From positions 1,131,099-1,195,098 of the forward strand of contig NZ_FXAW01000001.1 of the NCBI RefSeq assembly GCF_900177665.1: a stretch of DNA of 64,000 nt, written 5' to 3'. The notes under the pieces are model-generated. The model was not told where the DNA came from and ran no database searches. It saw only the letters and a list, made by a program, of their open reading frames with translations. Position numbers and translations under genes: made by a program. The stretch comes from Marivirga sericea (GTDB lineage Bacteria > Bacteroidota > Bacteroidia > Cytophagales > Cyclobacteriaceae). Below, piece by piece: positions 53,646-59,034 of the stretch; the first letter of the stretch is position 1, and each line of letters starts with the position of its first letter.

Positions 53646-56330
53646 ATGAAAATCGGAATATTTTTTGGAGGTCAGTCTAGAGAAAGGGAAATATCATTTG
53701 CAGGTGGAAGAACGGTTTATGATAATTTAAACAAATCTATATTTGAGGCAGTCCCCATTTTTGTAGACAGTAAAGGTCATTTCGTTTTGCTGGATTGGCA
53801 GTACATTTATAAAGGTACAATCCGCGATTTCTATCCTCCTGTAGATTTCTTGCCTAAATCTGACTTGCCTGTTCAAATTTATGCCGAATCATTAAAAGAT
53901 CTATCTGAAAATGACTGGGATAAGTTAATTGCTGAAGTTGGGAAAAGAATTGATCCATCTAGTTTTAATAAATATATGGACTTTGCATTTTTAGCTATGC
54001 ACGGACCATTTGGAGAAGACGGCAACATACAAGGCATTTTAGAATGGTACGGGATTCCCTTTAGCGGAGCTGGAATACTACCCTCCTCAATAGGAATCAG
54101 CAAAATTGCACAGCGTCAATTTCTCCAGCAAGCTAATTTTGATGGCCCAAAAAGTGTAATACTCAATCAAGCAGATTGGAATAGTCAATCGCATGAAAAT
54201 ATTTTCAAAAGCTTAAAACATAAACTGGATCTCCCGCTCGTCATAAAAGCACCTCACCAGGGCTCTTCTATAGGCGTAAGTATCTTAATTGAAGATGATT
54301 TAGCAAAATTTGAACACTTGATTCAGAAAAGCTTTTTTGAATTAGAAATAAATAAAGCTGAATGGGATAACTACAGCCAAACTGAAAAAATCAGTTTCAT
54401 AGCCAAAATGGTGGATATCAGAGAAGGTATTGGACTGCCAGTAATTGTAAATGAAGACTTATTATACACGCCTGATGAGTTGATGTATTACCTCAACCAA
54501 AGCTTCCCAGCCCAGCAAGAGTCTATAAAATTGAAAGCTATTGATTCTGAGGATTCACTTTTAATCGAATCCTTTATCGAAGGAAAAGAATTTTCTTGCA
54601 TCGTAATTCAAGATGAACACGGCCGGCCTATTGCTTTGCCACCAACTGAAATTCGCAAGGGAAAGGACGTATTTGACTATCGTTCGAAGTATCTTCCCGG
54701 CATAAGCAGAAAGATCACGCCCATCGATGCTCCGCAGGATATCATTGAAAAAATACGAACACAGTGTTCCGACTTATTTAAGGCATTGCAAATCGATGTA
54801 TATGCCAGAATAGATGGTTTTATAACGAAAGAAGGAAAAGTATTCTTAAATGATCCGAATACTACTTCGGGCATGTTACCTTCTTCCTTCTTTTTTCATC
54901 AAGCAGCTGAAATTGGACTCAATCCTTCACAGTTTTTAAGCTACATTATTAGAACCTCCTTAAATGCTAGATTAAAAAGTGGAAAGCATCATTTTGAATT
55001 GCAGAAAATGATCAAAAAATTAGATAAGGAATTGGAGGGATTAAAAAACGAAGCTCAAAAGAAAATTAATGTTGGAGTAATTATGGGAGGATTCTCAACA
55101 GAAAGACATATATCTGTGGAAAGTGGACGCAATATCTATGAAAAACTCTCTTCTTCTGAAAAATACTTACCAATTCCTATTTTCTTAAGCGGAACCGAGG
55201 AGCAACATGAGCTTTTTGTATTGCCAATCAATATCATGTTGAAAGACAATGCGGACGATATCAAAGATAAAATCAAGGATTATCATGTGCATCCCATAAT
55301 TTCACAGATAAAATTTGAAAGTAGTGAGATCACTGAAAAGTACTCTCACAGTACTAATACTTCTTTAAAAAAGATTTCCTACGCTAACTTACCAGAATTG
55401 ATAGATGTAGCCTTTATTGCGCTTCATGGAAGACCAGGGGAAGATGGCGCAGTACAGACAGAACTAGAGCAGTTGAATATCCCTTACAATGGCTCTGATG
55501 TAGAGAGTTCGAAGATCACCATCAATAAATTCGAAACAAATGAAAGGCTAAAAGATGCAGGAATATCTGTAGCTGATCACAGATTAGTTTTTGAGGACAA
55601 ATGGCAGAGCCACAAGGAAGCAGAAATTGAAGCAATAGAGCAACAGTTGGATTATCCACTAATTGCCAAGCCAGCTGATGATGGCTGTAGCTCAGCAGTG
55701 AAGAAAATAAAAAACAGATCTGAACTAGAAGCCTTTGCGGGAATGATGTTCAGACCTCAAGAGGAGTTTATAGAGAATTTAGCCAATATTCTAAAACTCA
55801 AAAAGAATGAGGAATTCCCTCAAAAGAATTTTTTCTTGTTAGAAGAACTTATTGATAAAAAGGCTGCAAAATACTTTTTGGAGATAACTGGTGGACTTTT
55901 GACACATTTCAAGGAAGATGGGAGCATCGATTATGAAATATTTGAACCATCGGAAGCGTTAGCTGGAGGTGAAGTTTTAAGTTTGGAAGAAAAATTTCTG
56001 GCCGGAGAAGGTCAAAACATTACGCCTGCCAGGTACACCCCAGAAGCGAAAAATTATAAGAAGGTGGCCGAGCAAGTGAAAGCTACGCTGAAAAAGACAG
56101 CAAAAGTACTAAATGTAACAGGTTATGCAAGAATTGATGCTTTTGTACGGGTTAATGAGGATTTAAGTGCAGAAACTATTATTATTGAGGTAAACTCATT
56201 ACCTGGAATGACACCAGCAACTTGTATTTTTCATCAAACAGCGATCAATGGCTATAAGCCGTATGATTTTATTGATAAAATACTTTCTTTTGGAACTGAA
56301 AAAATGAAAAAACAAACCATTGCAAAATGA
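53646..56330 (+). CDS. Tandem D-alanine--D-alanine ligase (two ligase units in one chain)
   Basis: 894 residues, about 2.5 times a normal Ddl. Unit 1 (about 1-455) begins MKIGIFFGGQSREREISFAG; unit 2 (about 473-890) begins NVGVIMGGFSTERHISVESG. Both carry the Ddl N-terminal domain and an ATP-grasp domain: LAMHGPFGEDGNIQGILEWY and IALHGRPGEDGAVQTELEQL, then GVSILIEDD and LIAKPADDGCSSAV. Metal ligands differ: unit 2 has D831, E848 and N850 (IIIEVNSLPGM), while unit 1 has D390 and N405 with D403 where Glu is usual (LNDPNTTSGM). Unit 1 also has an insertion around residues 225-310. Role: D-Ala-D-Ala for peptidoglycan, or a related dipeptide-type product. Overlaps the PASTA gene by ATGA. Confidence 0.9.
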   Translation: MKIGIFFGGQSREREISFAGGRTVYDNLNKSIFEAVPIFVDSKGHFVLLDWQYIYKGTIRDFYPPVDFLPKSDLPVQIYAESLKDLSENDWDKLIAEVGKRIDPSSFNKYMDFAFLAMHGPFGEDGNIQGILEWYGIPFSGAGILPSSIGISKIAQRQFLQQANFDGPKSVILNQADWNSQSHENIFKSLKHKLDLPLVIKAPHQGSSIGVSILIEDDLAKFEHLIQKSFFELEINKAEWDNYSQTEKISFIAKMVDIREGIGLPVIVNEDLLYTPDELMYYLNQSFPAQQESIKLKAIDSEDSLLIESFIEGKEFSCIVIQDEHGRPIALPPTEIRKGKDVFDYRSKYLPGISRKITPIDAPQDIIEKIRTQCSDLFKALQIDVYARIDGFITKEGKVFLNDPNTTSGMLPSSFFFHQAAEIGLNPSQFLSYIIRTSLNARLKSGKHHFELQKMIKKLDKELEGLKNEAQKKINVGVIMGGFSTERHISVESGRNIYEKLSSSEKYLPIPIFLSGTEEQHELFVLPINIMLKDNADDIKDKIKDYHVHPIISQIKFESSEITEKYSHSTNTSLKKISYANLPELIDVAFIALHGRPGEDGAVQTELEQLNIPYNGSDVESSKITINKFETNERLKDAGISVADHRLVFEDKWQSHKEAEIEAIEQQLDYPLIAKPADDGCSSAVKKIKNRSELEAFAGMMFRPQEEFIENLANILKLKKNEEFPQKNFFLLEELIDKKAAKYFLEITGGLLTHFKEDGSIDYEIFEPSEALAGGEVLSLEEKFLAGEGQNITPARYTPEAKNYKKVAEQVKATLKKTAKVLNVTGYARIDAFVRVNEDLSAETIIIEVNSLPGMTPATCIFHQTAINGYKPYDFIDKILSFGTEKMKKQTIAK

Positions 56331-57115
56331 AGCTAAAAGCTAATTCTTTAAGAGATTTATTTATTCACCTGGGTATAATTGTTGGACTGGGTATAATTAT
56401 CATATTGAGTTTTTTCTACATCTATTTACCTGTAACCACTCATCATGGAGAGAGCATAACCGTTCCTCAATTGGAGGGGGTTCATTTGAATGAGTTAGAT
56501 GAATTTTTATTAGAACGGGATTTACGTTACGAAGTAACAGCAGATTCTGGTTTCTCAGCTGAATATCCACCACTAACTGTTTTAAGTCAAGATCCTGCAG
56601 AAGGAAAAAAAGTGAAAGAAAATAGGAAAATCTATGTTTCACTGAATGCTACAAGCCCACCTAATGTTAAAATGCCCAAATTGGTGGATGGATCACTAAA
56701 AAATGCGCAAATGGTATTAGAAAGTTATGGACTCTTATTGGGTGAAATAACTTACGAACCCCATGAATTTCAAAATGCTGTTTTAAAACAGAAATTGGAT
56801 GGGAAAGAAATAGAGGCTGGTGAAGATTTAGCAAAAGGTTCAACCATTGATCTCGTGATAGGAAATGGATTGGGCAGGCCATTTGCTATGCCTGATGTGG
56901 TGGGCAATAATAAAGAAGACGCAGAATTCATTATTGTCGGCAGTGGATTGCAATTAGGTAAAGTGAAAACAAGGGAAGATGATGAAAAAGCAGCAGGAAT
57001 CGTACTACAACAATATCCTGAATCTGGCACATCAGTTAGAACCGGAAACAGTGTAGATATTTGGATAGTAGCCCCAAAAAATGAAAATGAATTATTGACT
57101 CCTGATGATATATGA
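56327..57115 (+). CDS. Membrane-anchored PASTA-domain protein
   Basis: 262 residues. One membrane segment (about 14-35, HLGIIVGLGIIIILSFFYIY), then three PASTA domains outside: about 43-110 (ITVPQLEGVHLNELDEFLLE), 115-182 (VKMPKLVDGSLKNAQMVLES) and 189-254 (FAMPDVVGNNKEDAEFIIVG). PASTA domains bind muropeptide or beta-lactam-like ligands in kinases and PBPs; here there is no kinase or transpeptidase domain. Overlap by ATGA with the tandem ddl upstream and with the T9SS protein gene downstream places it in one translationally coupled operon. Confidence 0.92.
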   Translation: MKLKANSLRDLFIHLGIIVGLGIIIILSFFYIYLPVTTHHGESITVPQLEGVHLNELDEFLLERDLRYEVTADSGFSAEYPPLTVLSQDPAEGKKVKENRKIYVSLNATSPPNVKMPKLVDGSLKNAQMVLESYGLLLGEITYEPHEFQNAVLKQKLDGKEIEAGEDLAKGSTIDLVIGNGLGRPFAMPDVVGNNKEDAEFIIVGSGLQLGKVKTREDDEKAAGIVLQQYPESGTSVRTGNSVDIWIVAPKNENELLTPDDI

Positions 57116-59034
57116 AAACTGCTAAGCTTTTAAAACTATATTTTATAGGCTTTTTGCTGATTTATTTCTCACCGTCCCAAGCTCAAATTCAGGAGAGACC
57201 AATTTCTCATTTACAAAAAAATCAAAGCTCTACACAAAGAACAGCTATCACCATCGATACTTTATCACTACCATTATGGGAAGATTTTTCCTATAAAGAG
57301 TCGCAACCCGATAGTAGTATCTGGCTTTATGGCGAGAATATATTCGTTAATAGTAGCTACGCTCACCTTCCACCTTCCATAAATGTTGCCTCTTTAGATG
57401 GATTTAATGGTCAAGGACAGCCTTACGATCCCGATGCAAGCAATAATGGTATCGGAGATAGCTTGGTCTCACAACCAATAGACTTATCCGGCTTCACAGT
57501 CAACTCCAATATCAACCTAAGCTTTTTTTGGCAACCTGGCTATGGTGGATTTGCACCAGATCAGCAAGATTCTTTGAAAATAAGTTTTAAAAATTCAGAA
57601 GGGAATTGGATTCAAGTTGGGGGATTTAGGGGAAATGGAAATATAGAACCGCTCTTATTTTCGCAACATTTTGAGCGAGTAAATGATACAAGCTTTTTGC
57701 ATGCTGGTTTCCAATTCAAATTTGAAATAGCTGGTAATTTAGCTGGTGATTTTGATTTATGGAATATTGACTACATCTATTTAAATGAAGGAAATACGCC
57801 TGTTGGCACTCAAGAAAATGCCTATGACTCATATGAAGACAGAACGTTCTCAAGAAAAGCCGGCACCCCATTCGGAAACTATTTCGCAATACCGCTGCAT
57901 CATTTAGAAGAAGAATGGCTCACTCAAAACCTTCATTCATCAGATTTTATTTACAATAATTTATGGGCCGGAAATGCAAACAACTTCTCCTTCGGAACAG
58001 AATTCTTTAGTATTGTTTACGACACCCTCAAAGCAGGCAGTATTATCGATTCATTGGATGTAGATGGAATATTTCTAACAGACTTACAAGATACCGCCCG
58101 CTTTACCTATAAAGTCAAAAACAAAACACAATTCATTGATTATTTGATCGCTGAGAAAAACGTTGAAGACTCTGTATATCTAAATTTCCAGTTCAACCTG
58201 GGTACTAATGACAGCTTATTCTTTGAAACCGTCAATGGAGTAGCTCAATACTACCCTGACTTAAGTTTCAGGCAAAATGACACCATATCTACCATTATTC
58301 CATTACATGATTTTTATGCATATGATGACGGCACAGCAGAATCAAGAATTCAACTCAATTCCAGAAACTATCTGCTTGCGCAAGGCTATGAAATGATAGG
58401 CGAGCAATACTTAACCGGAATTGAGTTATATGCTCCTAATATTGGACAAAATTCATCAACTCAAAATATTACTTTACTTGTCTGGAATGAGCTTACTGCC
58501 AATACTGATGATATTCTCAGAGCGCAAAACGTCTTAATTAATGAAAGCACTTCAATCAATCAATTTCAAAGGTTTTCATTCGACAGGCCTGTTCTACTGA
58601 AAGGCGAGTTCTTTATTGGATACAGAGAAGAAAATGACGAGCCTCTTTCCATAGGATTTGATAAGAGTACAAATAGTGCCGACAAACTTTTCTACAATCA
58701 AAGTGGTACCTGGGAGCCCAATACGGTTTTAGAAGGAAGCGTCATGATTCGTCCTGTATTCGATGAGGCAAGAATTACAGTTTCTAATGAAAAAGTATTG
58801 GATACTGACTGGAGAATAAAAGCATATCCCAACCCCAATAAGGGGCTACTAAAGCTTACAGAGAACTGGGATCAAATAAAAATATACGATCTTCAAGGGA
58901 GATTACGGCTAGAGTCTTCTAATCCAGAAAATCTAAAAGAACTGGATATCAGTAAATTAGAGAATGATCTTTATTTATTAAAGATCATGAAGGGCAGTAA
59001 GCAAAGCATTTTAAAGATTATGCTTAGGAAATAA
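57112..59034 (+). CDS. T9SS-exported protein of unknown function
   Basis: 640 residues. The signal peptide is 1-24 (LLIYFSPSQA). The N-terminal part contains a lectin- or MAM-like segment (NINLSFFWQPGYGGFAPDQQ, FDLWNIDYIYLNEGNTPVGT) with no catalytic motif that I recognise. The C-terminal 75 residues are a T9SS type A sorting domain (RIKAYPNPNKGLLKLTENWD, IKIYDLQGRLRL, LYLLKIMKGSKQS). It is coupled to the PASTA gene by ATGA, an unusual setting for a T9SS cargo. Confidence 0.88.
   Translation: MKTAKLLKLYFIGFLLIYFSPSQAQIQERPISHLQKNQSSTQRTAITIDTLSLPLWEDFSYKESQPDSSIWLYGENIFVNSSYAHLPPSINVASLDGFNGQGQPYDPDASNNGIGDSLVSQPIDLSGFTVNSNINLSFFWQPGYGGFAPDQQDSLKISFKNSEGNWIQVGGFRGNGNIEPLLFSQHFERVNDTSFLHAGFQFKFEIAGNLAGDFDLWNIDYIYLNEGNTPVGTQENAYDSYEDRTFSRKAGTPFGNYFAIPLHHLEEEWLTQNLHSSDFIYNNLWAGNANNFSFGTEFFSIVYDTLKAGSIIDSLDVDGIFLTDLQDTARFTYKVKNKTQFIDYLIAEKNVEDSVYLNFQFNLGTNDSLFFETVNGVAQYYPDLSFRQNDTISTIIPLHDFYAYDDGTAESRIQLNSRNYLLAQGYEMIGEQYLTGIELYAPNIGQNSSTQNITLLVWNELTANTDDILRAQNVLINESTSINQFQRFSFDRPVLLKGEFFIGYREENDEPLSIGFDKSTNSADKLFYNQSGTWEPNTVLEGSVMIRPVFDEARITVSNEKVLDTDWRIKAYPNPNKGLLKLTENWDQIKIYDLQGRLRLESSNPENLKELDISKLENDLYLLKIMKGSKQSILKIMLRK

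Follow-up and report, generated by a model that had tools for sequence, protein, structure and literature searches.

Ordinary D-alanine-D-alanine ligases (Ddls) work as dimers, and the F-type Ddls, such as LmDdl2, are single units. Glu15, Ser150, and Tyr216 are treated together as a triad, and the VanA-type D-alanine--(R)-lactate ligases belong to the same Ddl family as the tandem protein described here. Two ATP-grasp units with different jobs in one chain occur in CarB, whose likeness to the tandem is one of analogy only and whose reaction differs. For E. coli DdlB, excerpts of a published description have Tyr216 touching the nitrogen of the second D-Ala and Ser281 its carboxylate, with Arg255 and Gly276 of the oxyanion pocket in contact with the peptide carbonyl and Lys97, Lys144, and Lys215 with the phosphates (PMC5717164). 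Ser150 and Tyr216 are described, in the excerpted part of a second paper, as conserved in Ddls whose sole product is D-Ala-D-Ala, and DdlB with the changes Ser150 to Ala and Tyr216 to Phe reportedly gained weak D-Ala-D-Lac activity (PMC7691350). An active-site Phe is the mark of the F-type Ddl in vancomycin-resistant lactic acid bacteria according to excerpts of a third (PMC7829361), and the excerpted literature links Phe-216 F-type Ddls to D-Ala-D-Lac.

The locus lies in a 64,000-nucleotide stretch of Marivirga sericea DNA, which was analyzed whole and is called the window. Compared with E. coli DdlB, its ligase consists of two fused divergent units, unit 1 having a long insertion and E270D and unit 2 having S150C, Y216F, and S281T. 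Unit 2 shares Phe at the Tyr216 place with the F-type Ddls of Leuconostoc and lactobacilli (such as LmDdl2), as excerpts describe them, and this place is the only one compared. In the list of features that follows, split units are those encoded by separate genes and relics are chains that have lost the core of unit 2.

53646..56330, +: tandem Ddl of 894 aa, from ORF and domain searches; the sole Ddl found in the genome
53646..54980, +: unit 1 (about residues 1-445), a Y-type Ddl unit with catalytic residues kept and E270D (Asp403)
54300..54548, +: insertion within unit 1 (about residues 219-301); most relic and split unit 1 sequences have one of comparable length
54981..55061, +: linker joining the units (about residues 446-472, with approximate borders)
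55062..56327, +: unit 2 (about residues 473-894), an F-type Ddl unit
55686..55688, +: Cys681, at the place of DdlB Ser150; Cys in 93/93 tandem proteins
55995..55997, +: Phe784, at the place of DdlB Tyr216; Phe in 93/93 tandem and 6/6 split proteins
56220..56225, +: Thr859-Cys860, aligned with DdlB Ser281-Leu282 on the acceptor side
56327..57115, +: membrane protein of 262 aa carrying three PASTA domains; its gene shares the ATGA at 56327-56330 with the ligase gene
57112..59034, +: T9SS type A sorting-domain protein of 640 aa, the conserved partner of the PASTA protein; ATGA overlap with the PASTA gene

Two Ddl units with different active sites

The original prediction placed two Ddl units in one 894-residue protein, and each proved recognizable by itself: residues 1-442 and 475-894, queried apart, each matched 37 distinct solved sequences that are Ddl/Van ligases by name. 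A domain search of the chain placed Dala_Dala_lig_N (PF01820) in two stretches and Dala_Dala_lig_C (PF07478) in four. The whole chain scored above the curated cut-offs of both families (167.5 versus 34.6 and 188.3 versus 24 bits) and above that of TIGR01205 (358.5 versus 245.65 bits), and a genome search put both N-domains above the PF01820 cut-off. Because the only two PF01820 matches in the window's genome (G000) fall inside the ORF at 53646-56330, the tandem protein is the sole Ddl found there, and the suggested check for another single-domain ddl in the genome found none. Both units align with E. coli DdlB over the N-domain and the ATP-grasp domain, with mean identities of 29.6% for unit 1 and 28.2% for unit 2. 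Among the best 25 of 40 models, D-lactate ligase models gave the whole chain 124.8-185.1 bits against cut-offs of 550-775, and its score against the VanA-type D-Ala-D-Lac ligase model (NF000206) was 185.1 versus 550 bits. An AlphaFold2 model of the tandem, built with four Marivirga relatives, had a mean pLDDT of 38, too low to be usable.

Residues were compared in E. coli K-12 DdlB numbering across 93 tandem proteins, 6 split unit 1, 6 split unit 2, 14 relic, and 24 ordinary Ddl sequences. The tandem proteins comprise a first set of 53 (nearly all from the order, with close relatives; L086 is from outside it) and 40 from the class. The counts exclude the partial sequences L084, L085, L149, and L152, the contig-end chains L143, L144, L164, and L165, and the duplicates L015, L016, L018, L027, and L166-L170.

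In unit 1, K97, S150, E180, E187, K215, Y216, R255, D257, N272, and S281 are kept in 93/93 tandem proteins, and E15 and K144 each in 92/93 (one row truncated and one Arg, respectively). Unit 1 thus has the residues of a D-Ala-D-Ala-specific Ddl (Glu15, Ser150, Tyr216, Arg255, and Ser281), despite D270, S275, and, mostly, F282. Its metal ligands are D390, D403, and N405, and the Asp403 that had been noticed in place of the usual Glu is real: Asp stands for E270 in 93/93 tandem, 6/6 split, and 14/14 relic proteins (113/113 unit 1 sequences) and is a fixed family trait of unit 1. The large insertion also reported for this unit amounts to 84 residues, versus 13 in E. coli DdlB. Further changes in unit 1 are S275 in 93/93 and R213 and F282 in 90/93 each; ordinary Ddls have S150, Y216, S281, and P275 in 24/24.

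Unit 2 has the metal ligands D831, E848, and N850 that had been read from the sequence, and E15, K97, K144, S151, E180, E187, K215, R255, D257, E270, and N272 are present in 93/93. The original prediction took unit 2 to be canonical and unit 1 to be the deviant one, and the alignment shows the opposite: the catalytic residues are retained in unit 1, and the supposedly canonical unit 2 is the altered one, because C150, F216, T281, and L210 occur in 93/93 tandem proteins, with C282 in 83. Split unit 2 has F216 and T281 in 6/6 and C150 in 5/6. One unit 2 from a 0.7-Mb genome (L081:2444-3661) has Ser rather than Cys at 150 and keeps Phe216 and Thr281. Judged by its alignment, unit 2 bears the F-type mark, Phe at the Tyr216 place, together with further changes of its own, and Cys at 150 and Phe at 216 set it apart from Ddls specific for D-Ala-D-Ala. 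We found no characterized counterpart of S150C combined with L282C.

The claim of two non-identical sites is thus borne out across the 93 aligned proteins, and the reading that we prefer, at a little short of an even chance, is a ligase with two sites and two specificities, one Y-type and one F-type, both for D-alanine-type ligation. Unit 2 might instead have no catalytic role and act as a regulatory sensor of ATP, D-Ala, or a wall precursor, as the replacement of both Ser150 and Tyr216 would allow; this is quite improbable, given that those of its ATP, metal, and oxyanion residues that were examined do not vary (93/93).

Distribution and history of the tandem protein

Within the order sample, 288/292 genomes match the tandem protein at E<=0.001, many of them weakly, as ordinary Ddl, and classification of the match table places unit 2 in 16/21 families of the order. 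The family of M. sericea itself (f1) has unit 2 in 5/54 genomes (G000, G283, G214, G232, and G244); the other 49 match weakly, and all 16 of these that were checked have one ordinary-length Ddl. In families f2, f4, and f11, 25/25 genomes checked have a single frame, 555-657 aa long, that contains one N-domain. In f20, a family of small genomes, six encode the units separately, with the two genes on different contigs or no closer than 80 kb, and other genomes have them fused.

Mapping the fusion more widely, as had been proposed, gave an answer that depends on the sample. In the phylum sample, just 8/392 genomes matched the whole-protein query at 1e-30, which suggested a tandem confined to the order; the class sample, in which 161/396 genomes match the unit 2 profile at E<=1e-35, ruled this out. 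Judging by their handle numbers, the two samples consist mostly of different genomes. Among the matches listed, 157 of the 161 class genomes lie outside the order, in 39 families, and nearly all of the unit 2 matches fall in frames of 860-1000 aa; the two shorter frames that were fetched (L143 and L144) both run off contig ends. Exactly two PF01820 domains, and no third, were present in 38/38 class tandem genomes and in 11/11 checked in the order (G000, G214, G232, G244, G004, G014, G011, G017, G059, G050, and G012), so these genomes have no other Ddl of such a kind. The tandem is a widespread variant of Ddl and the sole Ddl found wherever this was checked. A literature search, which left subscription journals mostly uncovered, returned no tandem or fused Ddl among the matches listed.

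A D-Ala-D-Ala dipeptidase family, Peptidase_M15 (PF01427), occurs in 57/152 unit-2-bearing and 123/131 other genomes of the order sample (283/292 classified). As a functional marker it is a lead only, as few clades are involved and they are not independent, and f5 (5/5) and f18 (13/15) have both; a small first sample had looked cleaner than the true pattern.

Identities were used to compare constraint because dS was saturated in most dN/dS comparisons. The first 53 tandem proteins give 1378 pairs, over which identity averages 59.2% for unit 1 and 60.4% for unit 2 (correlation 0.95); by this measure, constraint on both is similar. Within a chain, the two units are 25% identical to each other. 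The tree separates unit 1 from unit 2 sequences as one clade each (support 0.986 and 1.0), and the split that places both units together, apart from the ordinary Ddls (25 outgroup sequences), has a support of 0.957, so the tree leans toward a shared origin of the two units.

The relic sequences of f2, f4, and f11 form one clade (support 1.0) among the tandem lineages, with inner supports mixed to weak. The tail after unit 1 matches the N-terminal part of unit 2 in 11/14 relics (E 3.5e-22 to 5.3e-7; the best of 280 shuffled tails was 0.098), and three have no such match. From this single clade and the unit 2 stub in 11/14 tails, the catalytic core of unit 2 was, most simply, lost once in the relic clade. 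Relic unit 1 has the ordinary acceptor-loop residues Pro275 (14/14) and Leu282 (13/14), with Arg213 in 0/14. Among tandem-unit-1 columns that are at least 95% fixed, relics have lost 7/22 in two active-site loops versus 7/91 elsewhere (Fisher 0.006), where the two loops were picked after the residue alignment had been seen and the relic clade counts as one event. The unit 1 line can serve as the only Ddl of a cell, because f2, f4, and f11 have one N-domain with ordinary acceptor-loop residues. In f20, five of the six unit 1 sequences from split genes cluster with a fused sequence (support 0.994) and the sixth, L082, is basal; because of this grouping, the simpler reading is that the separate units of f20 arose by fission.

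Two rivals to the two-site ligase draw on this history. The first is an obligate intramolecular heterodimer, in which both units would make only D-Ala-D-Ala and each would need the other as its partner. It would account for the equal conservation of the units, for the keeping of both separate genes in six f20 genomes, for the unit 2 N-terminal stub retained in 11/14 relic tails (E<=5.3e-7; best shuffled 0.098), and for unit 1 active-site loops that differ where the unit 2 core is gone. It leaves the fixed C150, F216, and T281 of unit 2 unexplained, and we regard it as unlikely. The second is a reversed division of labor, with unit 2 supplying D-Ala-D-Ala and unit 1 (F282, S275, and D270) doing something else. 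The relic clade, in which the unit 2 core is lost, is where unit 1 shows the ordinary Pro275/Leu282 pair, as such a division would have it; however, unit 1 keeps Glu15, Ser150, and Tyr216 and unit 2 lacks two of these three, and this arrangement is rather improbable.

The PASTA and T9SS genes beside the ligase

The gene for the membrane protein with three PASTA domains overlaps the ligase gene at ATGA (56327-56330), just as had been described. The most hydrophobic 19-residue window of its product begins at residue 11. It shares PASTA repeats after a membrane segment with the PASTA kinases (PknB/Stk1) but has no kinase domain: the PASTA kinase model (NF033483) gave 100.6 versus 450 bits, over profile positions 338-562 of 563 only, that is, PASTA only. 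The secreted 640-aa T9SS protein beyond it has no Pfam match outside its sorting domain.

Absence of the PASTA link from relatives had been named as part of what would refute the original prediction, and the link is conserved. Among 91 tandem loci (not de-replicated, and excluding the locus in the window), PASTA adjoins the tandem in 70: 69 have it downstream on the same strand, 49 of these overlapping or within 10 bases, and one has it fused. The other 21 have no PASTA in the stretch covered, which in some loci is just 0.7-1.5 kb long. In the f20 fissions, PASTA lies beside unit 2 in 5/6 and beside unit 1 in 0/6, a pattern that a regulatory unit 2 could also explain, and it lies beside 0/14 relic genes (L069 with just 243 bases downstream). 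A PASTA match is present in 70/70 genomes searched, and L049 and L184 each have two adjacent PASTA genes.

The idea that PASTA is specially tied to the fusion is ruled out, since it also occurs beside ordinary ddl genes (downstream on the same strand in 7/24, with 4 more nearby on the opposite strand) and is steadier beside the T9SS gene. With the sorting domain left out, the main part of the T9SS protein has a matching ORF just after 84/101 PASTA genes that have 500 or more bases of downstream sequence, and also in 15/20 fetched loci where PASTA sits away from ddl. As a control, 83/84 ORFs matching that main part in the loci covered sit just after PASTA; the exception, L104, is a locus without PASTA, beside an ordinary ddl. 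The PASTA and T9SS proteins are the steadiest pair, which the ligase often joins.

A genome outside the order encodes unit 1, unit 2, a membrane segment, and PASTA as a single 1197-aa chain (L086:4751-8344). Because this fused chain exists, a tie between a cytoplasmic ligase and a periplasmic PASTA domain, a topology predicted for these proteins, is plausible, and PASTA might recruit the ligase to the membrane. That PASTA senses a wall precursor, as the original prediction proposed, would be a guess.

A possible two-site ligase and what it would mean

In the two-site ligase that we prefer, unit 1 would be a working Y-type D-Ala-D-Ala site supplying the essential dipeptide, and unit 2 would also work as an ATP-grasp site, its acceptor side remodelled to the F-type. 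Given that remodelling, unit 2 would be expected to couple D-Ala with another second substrate, or with a wider range of them, for which a 2-hydroxy acid such as D-lactate is a candidate because of the Phe at 216; this Phe alone does not prove depsipeptide synthesis. Alternatively, unit 2 may make the same product under other conditions. The two units may also pair physically. We favor two sites because the ATP and metal residues of unit 2 and its C150, F216, and T281 are equally fixed, because unit 2 is as conserved as unit 1, because the tandem genomes checked have no other Ddl of such a kind, because six f20 genomes have both units as separate genes, and because the unit 1 line can serve alone in f2, f4, and f11. 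The reading is weakened because, if unit 1 by itself supplied all D-Ala-D-Ala in tandem species, the loss of unit 2 would not have required the change seen in the relic unit 1 acceptor loop (a single event, in that clade only), because unit 2 catalysis would be dispensable in the relic clade, and because most of f1 has one ordinary Ddl (16/16 checked; 49/54 by weak match).

A fuller version, in which unit 1 of the chain makes D-Ala-D-Ala and unit 2 makes a D-Ala depsipeptide or another D-Ala-D-X product, would mean that many families of the class routinely build two kinds of wall precursor, or else a non-wall metabolite, in connection with an envelope module of PASTA and T9SS proteins; we hold it to be somewhat unlikely.

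Ddl is an essential antibiotic target and is usually taken as one small enzyme. Here no Ddl was found other than a fused pair. This pair of an ordinary and an F-type site is kept in many families, alongside natural fissions, one truncation, and one triple fusion. The role of Tyr216 and Ser150, and the possibility that tandem bacteria make more than one wall precursor, are thereby made directly testable.
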